64,000 nt of DNA from Desulfitobacterium dichloroeliminans LMG P-21439. GTDB lineage: Bacteria > Bacillota > Desulfitobacteriia > Desulfitobacteriales > Desulfitobacteriaceae. The position numbers were made by a program, and so were the translations under genes. Shown in pieces: positions 11,523-56,227 of the stretch. The DNA is taken from contig NC_019903.1 of assembly GCF_000243135.2 (NCBI RefSeq), positions 3,324,001-3,388,000 on the forward strand. Direction: 5' to 3'. Position 1 is the first letter of the stretch. Each line of letters starts with the position of its first letter. A model generated the notes under the pieces. The model saw nothing but the letters and a program-made list of their open reading frames with translations, was not told the origin of the DNA and made no database searches.

Positions 11523-11593
11523 CGTTATTTCTCCTCTCTCAATCTGGATTTGGGGTCTTTGGGGTCTGGGTCATTGCTTATTACTGGAGTCAG

Positions 11594-11836
11594 GTAGCTT
11601 TTCGCACACCGTTCACTTACTAGCTCCAGGGCTATCGCATTCGCTTCTATGGGAGCTACGCCAAACCCCGCTGCTTTCTGCATGTGAACCAGTGGCTCCG
11701 CTATCCCAAAGAAGCCTTATGCGATGTACCGCCCTTCCGCTTAAAGAAAGCTTGGCTTGTGGTGAGGGAAGCGAAGCAGAAGCCTTAGCTGCCTTATACA
11801 CAGTGAAAATCGTTCCACTATTGTGCGAAAAGCTAC
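11594..11836. repeat. Inverted-repeat element between fadA and fadE (element C)
   Basis: Exact 15-base inverted ends (GTAGCTTTTCGCACA at 11594-11608 and its complement at 11822-11836) bound 243 bases. A nested stem TAGCTCC/GGAGCTA lies near the left end. The right arm shares TGCGAAAAGCT with the element at 44254-44500, so they may be related. Open frames across it have no coding character. A GACAGGTCCC REP-like word follows at 11861. Confidence 0.6.
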
Positions 11837-11993
11837 GCTTATTCTGCACTTAGTGACGAAGACAGGTCCCGTGTCCCGGGGAGAAACATGCAATTCTCTG
11901 AGGCCTGTGCTTTGATTCTTTGAAGCCTGTGCCTTGCTTATGGTTGGGACAGAAACCTATCCCCTGTGCCCTACGCGTAGCTTAATAGAAAGC

Positions 11994-12207
11994 CCAAGGA
12001 TTTTGCTTGACAGCAGAGAACGGCTTCTAAGCGAGCAGTTACCCGTTCTTCGCGAAAAGCTTACAGCGGAGTCGGGTTGGAAACAGGACGTTTCCAACTG
12101 CCCACTGAGCAGGAGCGATTTGGGCAGCGTCCCGACGGAGCGGTAAGCTTGAGCGTTAGAACGGGTACGCGCAGCTTACAGAGTGAACGCGGCAAGCAAA
12201 ATCCTGG
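11994..12207 (+). repeat. Multi-stem palindromic intergenic element, copy A
   Basis: Ends CCAAGGATTTTGCTTG (11994-12009) and CAAGCAAAATCCTGG (12193-12207) are near-perfect inverted repeats. Inside are stems CCCGTTCT (12042-12049)/AGAACGGG (12158-12165), a hairpin GTTGGAAAC-AGGAC-GTTTCCAAC (12076-12098) and CTGCCCA (12098-12104)/TGGGCAG (12121-12127). The same plan occurs in inverse orientation at 44254-44500 with compensating changes. It may be a MITE-like mobile element or a structured RNA; no transposase is inside. It lies between fadA and fadE. Confidence 0.8.
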
Positions 12208-12250
12208 AGAGTCCCCTAAAAAATGACCGAGTGGATAAAGCTACCTAATA

Positions 12251-13405
12251 TCACAGTAGCTCGAGGACCCCAGCGGCGCCCATTCCGCCACCGATACACA
12301 TAGTAACCATGCCGTATTTGAGTCCGCGACGCTTCATTTCATGGAGCAGGGCGGCAGTGAGTTTGGCGCCGGTGCAGCCGAGGGGGTGCCCGAAGGCGAT
12401 GGCACCGCCGTTGGGGTTGACTTTGGTGGGGTCGATGCCAAGAGTCTTGATGATGGCGAGGGATTGGGAGGCGAAGGCTTCGTTAAGCTCGAAGAGATCG
12501 ATTTGGTCAAGAGTTAAGCCCACTTGCTTGAGAACTTTGGGGATCGCTTTGATCGGCCCGATGCCCATGAGTTCCGGCTCGACACCGGCGACGGCGAAGC
12601 CTCGCCAGAGCGCAAGGGGCTTGAGTTCGAGTTCTTGCACTTTGCTTTCAGACATAAGGAGGGTTATGGCGGCCCCGTCACTGGTTTGAGAGGAGTTCCC
12701 TGCCGTGACACTGCCACCGTTTTTAAAAACGGGTTTGAGCTTGCTGAGGGATTCCACTGTGCCCTCGGGGCGGATTCCTTCATCTTTACTAAACCATACT
12801 TCTCCTTTTTTACCGCTGGAAATAAGGACAGGCACGATTTCCTCAGCAAAACGTCCACTGGTTTGGGCTGCGTGGGCTTTTTGATGACTAGCTACTGCAA
12901 ACTCATCTTGTTGCTCCCGGGTGATCTCATATTTTTTAGCTACGTTTTCAGCGGTAAGTCCCATTGAAAGGTAGACTTCAGGGTGATACTGCATCATGTA
13001 GGGATTGGGGGCTGGTTTGCCACCACCCAAGGGCACTGCAGACATACTTTCTGCTCCTCCGGCCAACATTGCCTCGGCTTCACCCAAACGGATTCTGTCT
13101 GCTGCTAAAGAGATGGCCTGGAGTCCTGATGAGCAAAAGCGGTTGATAGTGAGTCCTGAGACTTCGATGGGGAGGCCTGCGCGCAGGGCCATGACTCGAG
13201 CCATGTTCATCCCTTGTTCTCCTTCGGGGAAGGAACAGCCGATGACACAATCATCAATATCAGCAGGATTTAAGCTGGGAGCACTTTTTAAAACATCTTG
13301 GATGACAAACGCCCCAAGATCGTCGGGTCGCATATGGGCTAAGGAACCCTTGCCGGATTTGCCGATGGCTGTACGTTTTGCTTCAATAATTAAGGCTTCT
13401 TTCAT
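12251..13405 (-). CDS. fadA: Acetyl-CoA C-acyltransferase (thiolase)
   Basis: This 384-residue thiolase shows the full catalytic set: Cys91 in NRFCSSGLQAI (acyl-enzyme nucleophile), His340 in IAFGHPLGCTG and Cys370 in CIGGGMGAAG (proton transfer). GGAESMS near 120 is also typical. It cleaves 3-ketoacyl-CoA to acetyl-CoA and a shortened acyl-CoA in beta-oxidation. The start is 13 bases downstream of the fadN stop, so the two are co-transcribed and probably form the FadN-FadA complex pair. The gene is followed by the structured elements at 11594-12207. Confidence 0.95.
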   Translation of the reverse strand: MKEALIIEAKRTAIGKSGKGSLAHMRPDDLGAFVIQDVLKSAPSLNPADIDDCVIGCSFPEGEQGMNMARVMALRAGLPIEVSGLTINRFCSSGLQAISLAADRIRLGEAEAMLAGGAESMSAVPLGGGKPAPNPYMMQYHPEVYLSMGLTAENVAKKYEITREQQDEFAVASHQKAHAAQTSGRFAEEIVPVLISSGKKGEVWFSKDEGIRPEGTVESLSKLKPVFKNGGSVTAGNSSQTSDGAAITLLMSESKVQELELKPLALWRGFAVAGVEPELMGIGPIKAIPKVLKQVGLTLDQIDLFELNEAFASQSLAIIKTLGIDPTKVNPNGGAIAFGHPLGCTGAKLTAALLHEMKRRGLKYGMVTMCIGGGMGAAGVLELL

Positions 13406-18830: not shown

Positions 18831-20852
18831 ATGTTTAATGATGATCCGCTTTTCTCTCCGGTCACGATCGGAACAATGGAGCTAAAAAACCGCATAGTGA
18901 TGCCAGCCATGCATCTTAATTACTGTCCGACAGGAGAAGTTACTGATCAGCTCATCGAATTCTATCGCGCGCGGGCCCGAGGTGGGGTGGGCTTAATTAT
19001 CGTCGGTGGATGCGGAATTGATCGAGTCGGCAACAACATGGGAATGATTCAGTTGGATGACGATTGTTACCTTCCTAGGCTACAACAGCTTGTGGCAGCC
19101 ATCCATAGTGAAGGAGCAAAGACCATCACCCAGCTCTATCAGGCAGGAAGGTATGCCTCCTCACGATTTACCGGCAACCAGCCCGTCGCCCCCTCACCCC
19201 TACCTTCTAAACTAACGCAAGAGATTCCTCACGAATTGACCGGGGAAGAAATTAAAGAAATGATTCAAAGTTTCGCCCAAGCTGCTGCCCGTACCCAGCA
19301 GGCGGGCTTTGATGGAGTGGAGATTCTTGCTGGGACCGGTTATTTAATCTCTGAATTTCTCTCTCCTTTGACGAACAAGAGGACGGATGAATACGGTGGC
19401 GACCTACCCAACCGCATGCGCTTTGCTTTAGAAGTTGTGGCAGCGATTCGAAAAGCCGTAGGCCCTGACTTCCCTTTGCTCGCTCGAATCGCAGGTCATG
19501 ACTTTGTGCCAGGTGGACATACCAACACAGAGGCACGTCTTTTTGCTAAGGCCTTAGAGGAGGCTGGGGTGGACGCTATCAATGTGACGGGAGGCTGGCA
19601 TGAGACCTTGGTTCCTCAAATTACCATGAATGTCCCCCCAGCAGCCTTCCGCTATTTGGCTCGGGGCATTAAAGAGGCTGTTTCTGTGCCGGTTATAGCC
19701 TCTAATCGTATAACCTCACCTCAGTTAGCTCGAGATATTCTTACTTCTGGGGATGCAGATCTGGTTGGGATGGCAAGGCCACTATTGGCGGATCCCTTTT
19801 TACCATTAAAAGCGCAAGGGTTCGATCCCTCACCCATTCGCCCCTGTGTGGGATGCAATCAGGGTTGTTTGGATCATGTCTTTCGAGGAACACCGGTAGC
19901 CTGCTTAGTGAATGCAGAAGCCGGACGAGAGACAGAGCCTAATGAAAAACCTGCCTCTTCACCTAAGAAGGTCCTTGTAGTTGGGGCCGGCCCTGCAGGA
20001 TTAGAATTTGCTCGGGTGGCCAGTCTACGGGGTCATGATGTAACTGTTTGGGAAAAATCCAATCAGCTCGGAGGCCAGATCAATCTCGCCGGTGCGCCGC
20101 CCGATCGTCGGGACTTCCATCGCTTTACGGATTATCTGATTCAAGTCTGCGAGGCTCAAGGTGTCAAAATCTGTAGGGGCCAAGAAGCCACTGCGGAGAA
20201 CCTTTTGGCGGGCATTGAAAAGGAAGGCTGGACCGACATTGCTATTGCCACCGGTGCTCTGCCGATGGATCCTCCCTTCCCCGTGATGGAAGATGCAGTC
20301 ATTACCCAAGCTTGGGATGTACTAGCCGGAAAAGAGACGGGTCAGAACGTCGTTATCATCGGCGGTGGCTCGGTAGGGGTGGAAACCGCTCTTTACCTGG
20401 CTAACCAAGGGACCTTGGATGCGGAAACCCTCCGTTTTCTTATCATCAATCAAGCAGAAAGCATAGGGACTTTGACTAAGCTTCTTTGCCAAGGAAATAA
20501 GCGGGTCACTTTAGTGGAAATGACCAAGGGCGTCGGACGTGACCTGGGCTCGAGCACCCGCTGGGCGATGCTGGCCGATCTGAAGCGTTACCAGGTTAAG
20601 GTATTGACCCATACAATGGTCAAAGCCGTTGGTCCTGATGGCATCAGGGTCAAGAGCCCCGAGGGAGAAAGTCTGATCCCCGCTGATATGGTGGTCTCCG
20701 CTATTGGCTCGGTCGCTAATCAAAAGCTTTTGATGGATCTCCGAGATAAGCTCCCAGCTCAAGTGACCTTATATCCAATCGGCGATGTGATTAAGCCAGC
20801 TAAAGTGCTGGATGCCGTCCAATCTGCCTATGATGTGGCTCGGAAGCTGTAA
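18831..20852 (+). CDS. FMN/FAD/4Fe-4S enoate reductase (2,4-dienoyl-CoA reductase type)
   Basis: 673 residues from ATG 18831, chosen because GGAGG at 18818-18822 precedes it and the open frame above it runs through the operator palindrome. The N-terminal Old-Yellow-Enzyme barrel (about 1-330) begins PLFSPVTIGTMELKNRIVMPAM; a 4Fe-4S motif CVGCNQGC...C follows near 340; then come an FAD fold (VVGAGPAGLEFARVASLRGHDV, near 380) and an NAD(P) fold (VVIIGGGSVGVETALYLANQG, near 505). This is the domain plan of E. coli FadH and clostridial enoate reductases. A role in unsaturated fatty-acid oxidation is inferred from the FadR-type site and the enoyl-CoA hydratase downstream. Confidence 0.88.
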   Translation: MFNDDPLFSPVTIGTMELKNRIVMPAMHLNYCPTGEVTDQLIEFYRARARGGVGLIIVGGCGIDRVGNNMGMIQLDDDCYLPRLQQLVAAIHSEGAKTITQLYQAGRYASSRFTGNQPVAPSPLPSKLTQEIPHELTGEEIKEMIQSFAQAAARTQQAGFDGVEILAGTGYLISEFLSPLTNKRTDEYGGDLPNRMRFALEVVAAIRKAVGPDFPLLARIAGHDFVPGGHTNTEARLFAKALEEAGVDAINVTGGWHETLVPQITMNVPPAAFRYLARGIKEAVSVPVIASNRITSPQLARDILTSGDADLVGMARPLLADPFLPLKAQGFDPSPIRPCVGCNQGCLDHVFRGTPVACLVNAEAGRETEPNEKPASSPKKVLVVGAGPAGLEFARVASLRGHDVTVWEKSNQLGGQINLAGAPPDRRDFHRFTDYLIQVCEAQGVKICRGQEATAENLLAGIEKEGWTDIAIATGALPMDPPFPVMEDAVITQAWDVLAGKETGQNVVIIGGGSVGVETALYLANQGTLDAETLRFLIINQAESIGTLTKLLCQGNKRVTLVEMTKGVGRDLGSSTRWAMLADLKRYQVKVLTHTMVKAVGPDGIRVKSPEGESLIPADMVVSAIGSVANQKLLMDLRDKLPAQVTLYPIGDVIKPAKVLDAVQSAYDVARKL

Positions 20853-20880
20853 ATCATTAGAAGATGGGGGGTAGATCATT

Positions 20881-32586: not shown

Positions 32587-32617
32587 CTATAATGATGCGC
32601 AGTACGGCACAGTTTTT

Positions 32618-32686
32618 GCTCATAGTCAGGCCATTTACGGCAGCCTGGTAGAAACTTGCAGACCCTATCTCTGCGGATATATGAAC
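32618..32686 (-). ncRNA. Purine riboswitch aptamer, guanine class
   Basis: Minus-strand P1 GTTCATA pairs with TATGAGC; P2 is GCAGA/TCTGC; J2/3 contains the conserved AGTTTCTACC; P3 is AGGC/GCCT with loop residues CCGTAAATG; J3/1 reads GACTATG. The C at 32625 corresponds to position 74 of the B. subtilis xpt aptamer, which selects guanine/hypoxanthine; adenine sensors have U. Confidence 0.95.
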
Positions 32687-32709
32687 AGTATGAAATTAGT
32701 ACAGTCCTT

Positions 32710-44211: not shown

Positions 44212-44253
44212 AGGTGGTGGTCGCTCCTTTACGTCTTAGCTTTTTAGGGGTCT

Positions 44254-44500
44254 CCAGGATTTTGCTATACACGTTCGCTCAGAAAGCTGCGCGCACCCGT
44301 TCTAACGCTCAAGCTCTGCGCTACGTCGGGTTACCTGACTAAATCGCCATCCCGAAAAGCGAGCGAGCTTTTCGCACTTGTTTGGCTCTCTAGTCAGTTG
44401 GAAACGTCCTGTTTCCAACCCGACTCCGCTGCGGCTTTTCGCGAAGAACGAGTAGCCGCTCGCTTTGAAGTCGCTCTCTTCCGTATAGCAAAATCCTTGG
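44254..44500 (-). repeat. Multi-stem palindromic intergenic element, copy B
   Basis: Ends CCAGGATTTTGCTATAC (44254-44270) and GTATAGCAAAATCCTTGG (44483-44500) pair with one bulge. Inside, in the same order as copy A on the opposite strand: AGAACG.../CGTTCT arms, hairpin GTTGGAAAC/GTTTCCAAC (44397-44419) with the same AGGAC loop, and CTGACTA (44335-44341)/TAGTCAG (44391-44397) in place of copy A's CTGCCCA/TGGGCAG. Lies between trpX and trpY. Confidence 0.8.
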
Positions 44501-44551
44501 GTTTTCTTTTAAGGTAACAATAATATATGAGCCACGGAAAGTGTGACAGGG

Positions 44552-44619: not shown

Positions 44620-45618
44620 TTACTTAAATACTTCTGCGGCTTTATTGATGACATCAGTGGAGAAGGTGACGCCGATGGCGTCTGCTGTATTTTGGTTAAG
44701 ATAGATATCCATATCGGTCATGGATTTTACGGGGATATCGCCGGGGTTTTTGCCGTTGAGGATTTCGGAGGCCATTTTTGCCGTTTCTTGACCGAGGATG
44801 GTGTAGTTGATGCCATAGGTTGCTAGGCCGCCGTCTTTGACCATGGAATCGGCTCCCACGTAGACGGGAATTTTTGCTTTATTAGCAGCTTGGGCCACAG
44901 CAGCCATGGCACTGGCGACAGCATTATCGATGGGGATGAAGATAGCATCTACATCTCCGGTGAGGGCGTTAACTGCTTGTAGTACCTCAGAGCTATTGGT
45001 AACCGTAGCTACTTCAACTTTGATGTTCTTCTGAGCCGCATACTCCCTGAGGTTTTCGATAACGGACACGGAGTTGGTCTCACTGGTATTGTAGAGGGCG
45101 CCGACGGTTTTTATCCCTGGGGTAATTTGCGCAGCTAGTTCCATGATCTTTTCGGCGGATACTCGGTCAGAGGTGCCTGTGACGTTAGCACCGGGTTTTT
45201 CCATTGAGCTGACAAGTCCTGACCCGACGGGGTCTGTGGCCGCTGAGAAAACAATAGGAATATCTTTAGTTTCATTGACTACCGCTTGAGCCGATGGGGT
45301 GGCAATTGCAATAATCAGGTCGTATTTATTGGCAACAAACTTTTGGGCAATCGTTTTGAGATTGGTTTGATCACCTTGGGCATTTTGATAGTCGATGGTG
45401 ATATTTTCGCCATCTTTAAAGCCTTGGGCAGCTAATTCGGCAATCGTTGCTTCACGAATAGTATTCAGAGAGGGATGTTCGACGATTTGAACAATCCCGA
45501 TCTTTTTCTTGCCTTCATTGGCTGATTTCCCTTGATCCGTGTTACTTGAGCCACAACCCGTGACGAATAAGGATAGTGCTAATACTCCACTTAAGATTCC
45601 CGCAAATTTCTTTTTCAT
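44620..45618 (-). CDS. trpX: Tryptophan-type ABC transporter substrate-binding lipoprotein
   Basis: 332 residues from ATG 45618; GGAGG lies 8 bases before it, and the GTG at 45633 overlaps that site. Lipobox FVTGC with Cys22. The mature part is an ABC_sub_bind domain: IGIVQIVEHPSLNTIREATIAEL near 43, IPIVFSAATDPVGSGLV near 125 and ALYNTSETNSVSVIENLREYA near 185. This family is regulated by tryptophan or tyrosine T-boxes in many Firmicutes. The T-box directly upstream has a UGG specifier, which fixes tryptophan as the likely ligand. Confidence 0.9.
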   Translation of the reverse strand: MKKKFAGILSGVLALSLFVTGCGSSNTDQGKSANEGKKKIGIVQIVEHPSLNTIREATIAELAAQGFKDGENITIDYQNAQGDQTNLKTIAQKFVANKYDLIIAIATPSAQAVVNETKDIPIVFSAATDPVGSGLVSSMEKPGANVTGTSDRVSAEKIMELAAQITPGIKTVGALYNTSETNSVSVIENLREYAAQKNIKVEVATVTNSSEVLQAVNALTGDVDAIFIPIDNAVASAMAAVAQAANKAKIPVYVGADSMVKDGGLATYGINYTILGQETAKMASEILNGKNPGDIPVKSMTDMDIYLNQNTADAIGVTFSTDVINKAAEVFK

Positions 45619-45723
45619 TTGAAGATCCTCCACTCTTTTTCAATTTTTTTGATTAAGATTCGAGGGTTCTTCCCTGCAATTCCCATCCATCCGCCTCGAT
45701 GCATGGGACGGTTCGTACCAAAA

Positions 45724-45989
45724 CAAAAAACGCCTATCCTTAAGTCTAACCTTAAGGACAGGCGCTTAACCTGCGGTACCACCTTAATTGATGTATGAAA
45801 ACCGATGCCCATACATCCTCTCTTGCAGGGTGCCATCACACCCTTAGCCCAATAACGCTGGCTGTGCGTCGTAAGCTACTCATTGCTTTTCACTCCGCCC
45901 TCAGGGGTCCATTTACTCGCTCCGTTACCTACCAGGCTTCCACCTATCCCGGCTCTCTTTAAGGTTGGTCTTGCGGTTTTACTTCCCCG
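45724..45989 (-). ncRNA. T-box leader with tryptophan (UGG) specifier
   Basis: On the minus strand, stem I opens GACGGGGAAGTA and closes with GTAAATGGACCCC; the specifier TGG (complement of 45909-45911) is followed by the usual purine. The AGAGAGCCGG segment and GGTGGAAGCC loop of stem I are present. The T-box sequence AAGGTGGTACCGCAGG (45770-45785) pairs with the tRNA acceptor end; the terminator GCCTGTCCTTAA/TTAAGGATAGGC with a run of six T ends at 45724. Transcription continues into trpX when uncharged tRNA-Trp binds. Confidence 0.95.
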
Positions 45990-46004
45990 TCAACAGTTTA
46001 GAAT

Positions 46005-54918: not shown

Positions 54919-54955
54919 AAAGCCAGTCCTCTAAACACTTAAGAGGACTGGCTTT
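54919..54955. terminator. Bidirectional terminator between the HTH-PBP regulator and dapL
   Basis: AAAGCCAGTCCTCT and AGAGGACTGGCTTT arms around a nine-base loop serve two convergent genes. Confidence 0.8.
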
Positions 54956-54991
54956 AACATATTACCGGGCTATACAAAGGCTAACTCAATC

Positions 54992-56227
54992 TTACTTCAT
55001 CCGAGTCTTAATCCGCTCAATGGCTTTTTCGGTATTTTCGCGAGTGCCGAAGGCGGTAAGGCGGAAGTATCCTTCGCCATTGGCCCCAAAGCCTGCGCCT
55101 GGGGTACCTACCACGTGAGCTTCAGTCATAAGCTTATCGAAGAATTCCCATGAACCCATATTGCGGGGAGTTTTCATCCAAATATAGGGTGCATTGACGC
55201 CGCCAAAGACTTTAAATCCAGCTTCCTTCAGCCCTTCACGGATGATGCGGGCATTTTCCATGTAGTAATCTATGGTTGCTCGGATCTGCTTCTTCCCTTC
55301 TTCAGAATACACTGCGGCGGCGGCGGCTTGGACGGGATAGGATACCCCATTGAATTTAGTAGTCTGTCTTCTCAACCAGAGCTTGTTGAGGCTATGCCCT
55401 TGGCCTTGGGAATCATAGACGAGGATATCTTTGGGCACCACAGTATAGGCACAACGTGTTCCAGTAAAGCCTGCAGTCTTGGAAAAGCTACGAAATTCTA
55501 CGGCGACTTGGCGAGCGCCTTCGACTTCGTAAATACTGCGTGGAACATCTTCCTCACGAATAAAGGCTTCATAGGCTGAGTCGAAGAGAATGATTGCTTT
55601 ATTCTCTCGTGCATAATCTACCCAGACCTTCAATTCTTCTTTAGTCAAGGTCATCCCTGTTGGGTTGTTGGGAAAACAAAGATAGATCATATCCACGTGA
55701 GTGGTTGGCAGAGCGGGTTTCATATCTTTTTCCTCGATACAAGGAAGATAGACGATTTTACCATACTGCCCTTTCTCCGTATCGTACATACCGGTTCGTC
55801 CGGCCATGACATTGCTGTCCACATACACAGGATAGACAGGATCCGTTACCGCCATGATATTATCCATGCCAAATATCTCTTGAAAATTAGCTGTATCGCT
55901 TTTAGCACCATCGCTGACGAATACTTCATCCATACCGAGTTCGATTCCTCGTGGAGCATAGTCATTGGAGATGATTTTTTCTATAAGGAAATCGTAGCCT
56001 TGCTCAGGACCATATCCTCTGAAGGTCCCTGCATTACCCATCTCATCCACAGCCTTTTTCATCGCTTCCACGACGGCCGGAGCTAGTGGCTTGGTGACGT
56101 CGCCGATTCCTAAGCGAATGATATCTGCATCAGGGCTCTGACTCTTAAATTCATTGACCCTACGTGCAATTTCTGAAAAAAGATAACTTCCCGGTAGTTT
56201 TAAGTAGTTTTCATTAATATGTGCCAT
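54992..56227 (-). CDS. dapL: LL-diaminopimelate aminotransferase
   Basis: 411 residues from ATG 56227 ([23 protein letters not shown], the family start, preceded by AAGGGGG); the open frame above adds 16 unrelated residues. PLP-enzyme landmarks are [16 protein letters not shown] near 190, [11 protein letters not shown] near 215 and the Schiff-base lysine in [18 protein letters not shown] near 255. It converts tetrahydrodipicolinate and glutamate to LL-diaminopimelate in one step for lysine and peptidoglycan synthesis. TTGCAA (56406-56411) and TATAAT (56382-56387), 18 bases apart, form its promoter. No lysine riboswitch was recognised in the 155-base leader. Confidence 0.94.

Follow-up and report, generated by a model that had tools for sequence, protein, structure and literature searches.

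The window analysed here is a stretch of 64,000 nucleotides of the Desulfitobacterium dichloroeliminans LMG P-21439 genome (contig NC_019903.1, positions 3,324,001 to 3,388,000), and it holds two copies of a non-coding palindromic element, hereafter E1 (Table 1). Copy A consists of an irregular long stem topped by two apical hairpins and lies opposite the 3' end of a thiolase gene. Copy B lies between the substrate-binding and permease genes of an ABC transporter, on the strand common to both. An earlier note on this DNA had described two copies on opposite strands, as is the case, and their extents are now refined. The outer stem (GCTTG/CAAGC in A, GCTATAC/GTATAGC in B) and the inner stem (CTGCCCA/TGGGCAG in A, CTGACTA/TAGTCAG in B) read as that note had claimed, and hairpin 1 is indeed the same in both copies. 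In hairpin 2 of copy B, an additional hairpin (GTGCGAAAAGC...GCTTTTCG) is inserted next to the GGGAT loop. Small hairpin modules (AACAAGTGCGAAA..GC..TTTCG) are added near the hairpin-2 loop in the window and at loci L069, L098 and L099; further modules (CGAAACCCGG..GGGTTTCG and a hairpin after it) are inserted elsewhere in E1, the size of which ranges from 218 to 320 bp.

Table 1. Features of the window (positions counted from its first letter; strand given where it applies)
Feature	Position	Strand	Remarks
E2, second palindromic module	11594-11836	-	forms a head-to-head pair with copy A; its arms are GTAGCTTTTCGCACA / TGTGCGAAAAGCTAC
E1 copy A	11993-12210	+	CCCAAGGATTTTG...CAAAATCCTGGAGA
Copy A, hairpin 1	12076-12098	+	GTTGGAAAC-AGGAC-GTTTCCAAC
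Copy A, hairpin 1 GGA loop	12085-12089	+	AGGAC, closing pair C-G
Copy A, hairpin 2	12098-12127	+	CTGCCCA...TGGGCAG
Copy A, hairpin 2 GGA loop	12111-12114	+	AGGA
Thiolase gene	12251-13405	-	3' end faced by copy A
Site empty here	20821-20868		E2 + E1 composite of about 0.8 kb in sister species G002
Purine riboswitch	32603-32704	-	
Permease gene, start	44211	-	
E1 copy B	44251-44501	-	
Copy B, hairpin 2	44335-44397	-	CTGACTA...TAGTCAG; GGGAT loop at 44349-44353
Copy B, added hairpin module	44353-44380	-	AACAAGTGCGAAA..GC..TTTCG
Copy B, hairpin 1	44397-44419	-	same sequence as in copy A; loop AGGAC at 44406-44410
ABC substrate-binding gene	44620-45633	-	
T-box leader	45751-46002	-	upstream of the ABC transporter genes holding copy B
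Site empty here	54955-54994		occupied in G002 by a composite of about 0.8 kb that directly follows a terminator-like hairpin

Copy A makes up one half of an E2 + E1 composite, which the earlier note had overlooked; the E2 match beside it scores 125.5 bits over 11589-11777. That E1 might be the whole element was rejected once E2 and the outer stem had been found. The same head-to-head arrangement occurs at most loci of two sister Desulfitobacterium species (G001 and G002; the present genome is G000), and no GGA-loop hairpins were recognised in the E2 family copies that were read. Head-to-head pairs in Desulfosporosinus carry GGA loops in both members, and tandem arrays are found as well. Two loci of Desulfosporosinus-type genomes, L194:7851-9147 and L192:7588-8701, hold respectively a tandem array of 3.7 copies with a period of 356 bp, and three direct copies with one inverted. 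The 0.57 kb spacers between head-to-head copies at L187 and L171 contain tandem repeat units of their own (CCTGCGGCACCGATTCAGATGGTGC...), and no conserved divergent promoter was seen by eye in the head-to-head spacers. An integron attC-like site, raised by the arrays at L192 and L194, was dropped, as loop conservation and strand bias fit an RNA.

Used as the query against all 3.62 Mb of its own genome, copy A returned 28 matching pieces, corresponding to about 20 separate copies or fragments. The 17-base hairpin core GGAAACAGGACGTTTCC occurs exactly 15 times in G000, 44 times in G001 and 68 times in G002, and its reversed control is found in none of the three; the repeat is therefore no chance match, and the two sister species carry at least 44 and 68 copies. 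All 15 exact cores of G000 lie within 0.04-0.59 Mb and 2.7-3.56 Mb, with none between 0.59 and 2.7 Mb, and those of G002 are spread across the whole chromosome. Related genomes were searched with R1, an RNA model of E1 built for this analysis, and many further copies were found, as the idea of a repeat family required; matches occur in 34 of the 74 genomes of the order, every one in a single family. Phage and plasmid collections gave no E1 match, and matches in Spirochaetota and in Bacteroides metagenome-assembled genomes were rejected since they share only the hairpin and not the element.

These copies come and go between species. The site of copy B is empty in G002, and two sites that are empty in the window carry composites there (Table 1); these presence/absence differences are read without assigning gain or loss. 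Sixteen copy pairs in G002 are at least 97% identical. At two orthologous loci (L015 against L049, and L102 against L112) the element points one way in G000 and the other way in G002, which may reflect the loss of different partners from a head-to-head pair. E1 is thus short, non-coding, dispersed and variably present, as miniature inverted-repeat transposable elements (MITEs) are. Its ends are paired yet variable in sequence, and the flanks have diverged too far for a target duplication to be defined. Comparison of the flanks revealed no recurrent gene beside E1, and an autonomous transposon was rejected on that ground; an enzyme that moves the unit is presumed. Like REP/BIME, ERIC and MITE-like palindromes, E1 is non-coding, dispersed, palindromic and modular, and it seldom lies between divergent genes (5 of 94 copies, a simple ORF rule being used to call genes). 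Unlike them, it has a core of about 220 nt, loops and internal loops conserved on one strand, strong compensatory change, and paired ends without fixed sequence.

Both window copies fold far better than expected from their composition, with z-scores of -6.95 (A) and -8.12 (B) and no equally good fold among 200 shuffles of either. A core alignment of 75 copies was made and the structure was then written by hand. Counted on 24 diverse copies that MAFFT had aligned without fitting to it, this hand-written structure had 96.3% of its cells paired, changes on both sides in 23 of the 50 pairs, and a covariation score of 0.276 against 0.103 in shuffles. An alignment of 98 copies fitted to R1, which leans toward the structure, gave 97.5% paired cells, changes on both sides with pairing kept in 29 of 50 base pairs (shuffle mean 16.4) and a covariation score of 0.259 against 0.090 when shuffled; with partners slid by 1-3 columns the score was at most 0.047. 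Because many copies derive from one another, orthologous sites were also compared between species, and there 75 double changes keep pairing and 1 breaks it, about 11 double changes being expected under independence. Selection on the fold of E1 is strongly supported: what the earlier note had proposed from two copies holds across 98 copies and at orthologous sites, and the excess of compensatory change on which it had made the proposal depend is present.

Departures from Watson-Crick pairing in the + reading are G-U in 94 cells and A-C in 42 (98 copies; cells not independent), and the sense strand forms the more stable fold in 95 of the 98. The strand asymmetry and the folding energy favour the + reading of E1 as the functional RNA; of the two options left by the earlier note, RNA or single-stranded DNA, it is RNA in this orientation that they favour. 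The stem is interrupted by conserved asymmetric internal loops, GCGGAG/CGGAGC and CGCGAAAAGC/GCTTGAGCG, which appear to be of the tandem-GA type, their geometry being read from the sequence.

GGA lies in the apical loop of 25 of 29 distinct hairpin-1 arms and of all 36 distinct hairpin-2 arms, and in none of 128 hairpins on the antisense strand. In diverged relatives the apical stems have been almost wholly replaced and the loops still read C-A(N)GGA(N)-G (for example CAGGACG, CAAGGACG, CAAGGAUG, CAUGGACG, CACGGAUG, CAGGGACG). The exceptions include six distinct hairpin-1 sequences with ACGA instead of AGGA; this variant recurs (L184, L195, L196, L145, L261), and hairpin 2 usually retains GGA there. 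The two GGA motifs of one E1 are usually 26-28 nt apart. Sites bound by CsrA/RsmE are known from the SELEX consensus RUACARGGAUGU and from ANGGAN hexaloops (PMC7652899). The loop A and closing C-G pair of E1 are conserved and its N positions vary as in this consensus, although the window-copy loops AGGAC and AGGA are shorter than the ideal hexaloop. With A(N)GGA(N) hairpin loops, usually as paired sites, E1 resembles known CsrA-binding RNAs, and its apical hairpins fit the CsrA/RsmE consensus and are candidate CsrA sites. CsrB/CsrC and RsmX/Y/Z of Gammaproteobacteria likewise carry GGA in hairpin loops, and the hairpin-1 loop CAGGACG of E1 resembles the CsrB repeat. Unlike those decoys, which gather many GGA sites in one small RNA, E1 has two apical GGA hairpins, and it consists of dispersed copies, not a dedicated gene, in another host group.

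The closest named relative is TwoAYGGAY (RF01731, clan CL00106), discovered in 2010 (PMC2864571), for which CsrA binding in Clostridia was predicted in 2014; its description has a stem that contains internal loops of the tandem-GA type and bears two apical GGA hairpins (PMC4333381). E1 shares the long stem, the purine-rich and apparently tandem-GA internal loops and the two apical GGA hairpins. The earlier note knew of no named element that matched, and for the window copies themselves this stands: an Rfam scan of A and B gave no match to TwoAYGGAY or any other family at the gathering threshold or at E values up to 10, and a search of G000-G002 with RF01731 gave nothing at E<=0.01. It fails for the wider group, in which the same model recognises above threshold the diverged relatives L193, L194 and L130; Desulfosporosinus copies are found by both models. 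One diverged copy that both recognise, L193:4465-4632, receives 134.8 bits from R1 and 48.8 bits from RF01731. Repeats in Psychromonas that share this plan also match RF01731 above threshold. They are multi-copy TwoAYGGAY-type repeats (L132, L147, L154; two genomes yield 9 and 12 matches); their hairpin 1 has the same sequence as in the window element, and their hairpin 2 carries the loops ATGGAC, AGGGAT and ATGGAT. Copy A lacks AYGGAY loops (AGGAC, AGGA), and its relatives have ANGGAN in both. Since two strict TwoAYGGAY features, the model match and the AYGGAY loops, fail, E1 is a diverged, amplified variant of the TwoAYGGAY kind and not a strict member; it also differs in its 15-68 copies per Desulfitobacterium genome and in head-to-head composites that come and go. 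If the predicted CsrA binding of TwoAYGGAY is right, E1 would work as that RNA does. Bacillaceae-1 RNA (RF01690), the other predicted CsrA-binding RNA outside Gammaproteobacteria (PMC4333381), has different host groups, and Rfam scans of the window copies and their relatives gave no match to it. A literature search found no description of the E1 repeat in Desulfitobacterium.

The proposed partner is encoded in this genome, which has one csrA, adjoining fliW, and csrA was detected in 60 of the 74 genomes searched in the order. In several genomes csrA occurs as two or three neighbouring paralogues (G016:C77, G029:C6, G036:C1, G019:C21). Within the family, with either RNA model, the element is present in 31 of 35 genomes with csrA and in 5 of 11 without (p 0.0065, ignoring kinship); among genomes at least 90% complete the counts are 26 of 29 and 1 of 6 (p 0.00095, again ignoring kinship). 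Four incomplete or contaminated genomes without detected csrA retain elements with GGA loops.

We consider it likely that E1 is a structured, TwoAYGGAY-related RNA, dispersed in a small non-coding insertion, that acts as a CsrA decoy; transcription, CsrA binding and decoy action are the parts of this reading that we infer. The earlier note had offered a MITE or a structured RNA as alternatives, and each description applies, the first to the dispersed insertion and the second to its core, so that only the choice between them falls away. Read-through transcription from neighbouring genes in the sense direction would yield E1 RNA, which would fold into the irregular long stem with its two apical hairpins, each presenting an A(N)GGA(N) loop. 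Given the spacing of 26-28 nt, one CsrA dimer could hold both GGA motifs, and many copies together would then serve as decoys reducing free CsrA. Copies immediately upstream of start codons could in addition make those mRNAs CsrA-sensitive. Several observations weigh against this reading: RF01731 does not recognise the window copies, their loops are short, some hairpin-1 sequences have ACGA, genomes without detected csrA retain GGA loops, and antisense copies are about as numerous as sense ones. In its fullest form, a mobile multi-copy sponge in which dozens of putative two-site CsrA-binding RNAs have been spread by insertion through transcription units, the proposal is tentative.

The rival that survives best would confine CsrA on E1 to the translation or stability of the host mRNA, with no relevant decoy effect. 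Elements do end close to the next gene (median 63 bases; sense copies end a median of about 60 bases ahead of it), copy B ends 40 bases before the permease start, and in several Desulfosporosinus species copies occupy related places, next to rng and ahead of a PBP2-like gene. Such a cis-only role is nevertheless rather unlikely: by the simple ORF rule, both neighbours run antisense to the element at 38 of the 94 copies and 34 copies are sense, the neighbouring genes are of many kinds, and sister species differ at many sites.

A passive role for E1, as a palindromic DNA insertion of the MITE-like or structured single-stranded kind in which template switching within the palindrome and conversion among copies have produced the paired changes without any function, is less probable still. 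The dispersed, non-coding, palindromic copies with their presence/absence differences and head-to-head composites would suit it, and so would the changes at orthologous sites, which affect whole helix blocks and use variants present elsewhere in the family; conversion among copies therefore probably contributes. Conversion alone would not, however, account for the conserved unpaired loops: correction of a palindrome leaves unexplained the A(N)GGA(N) loops of one strand, the asymmetric internal loops, the excess of G-U over A-C and the stabler sense fold. That the GGA loops serve another partner, a Shine-Dalgarno-like ribosome decoy or a different RNA-binding protein, is very improbable, for although AGGA resembles the Shine-Dalgarno core and a few genomes without detected csrA retain the loops, the kept loop A, the closing C-G pair and the general presentation on paired hairpins fit CsrA/RsmE, and the element is associated with csrA.

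In PMC7652899 and PMC4333381, CsrA decoy RNAs are described only from Gammaproteobacteria, and Bacillus subtilis is among the bacteria that rely on the protein FliW. What is new here is a large branch missed by the Rfam model, which shows strong covariation, has a defined strand and numbers 15-68 copies in each Desulfitobacterium genome, and the tie between a predicted CsrA-binding RNA and insertions that come and go. If the sponge reading is true, E1 would antagonise CsrA as an RNA in a host that is not a gammaproteobacterium and that encodes FliW as well, and the amount of free CsrA would depend on the number of E1 copies and on which operons are on. Dispersed DNA could thus build a sponge for a regulator.
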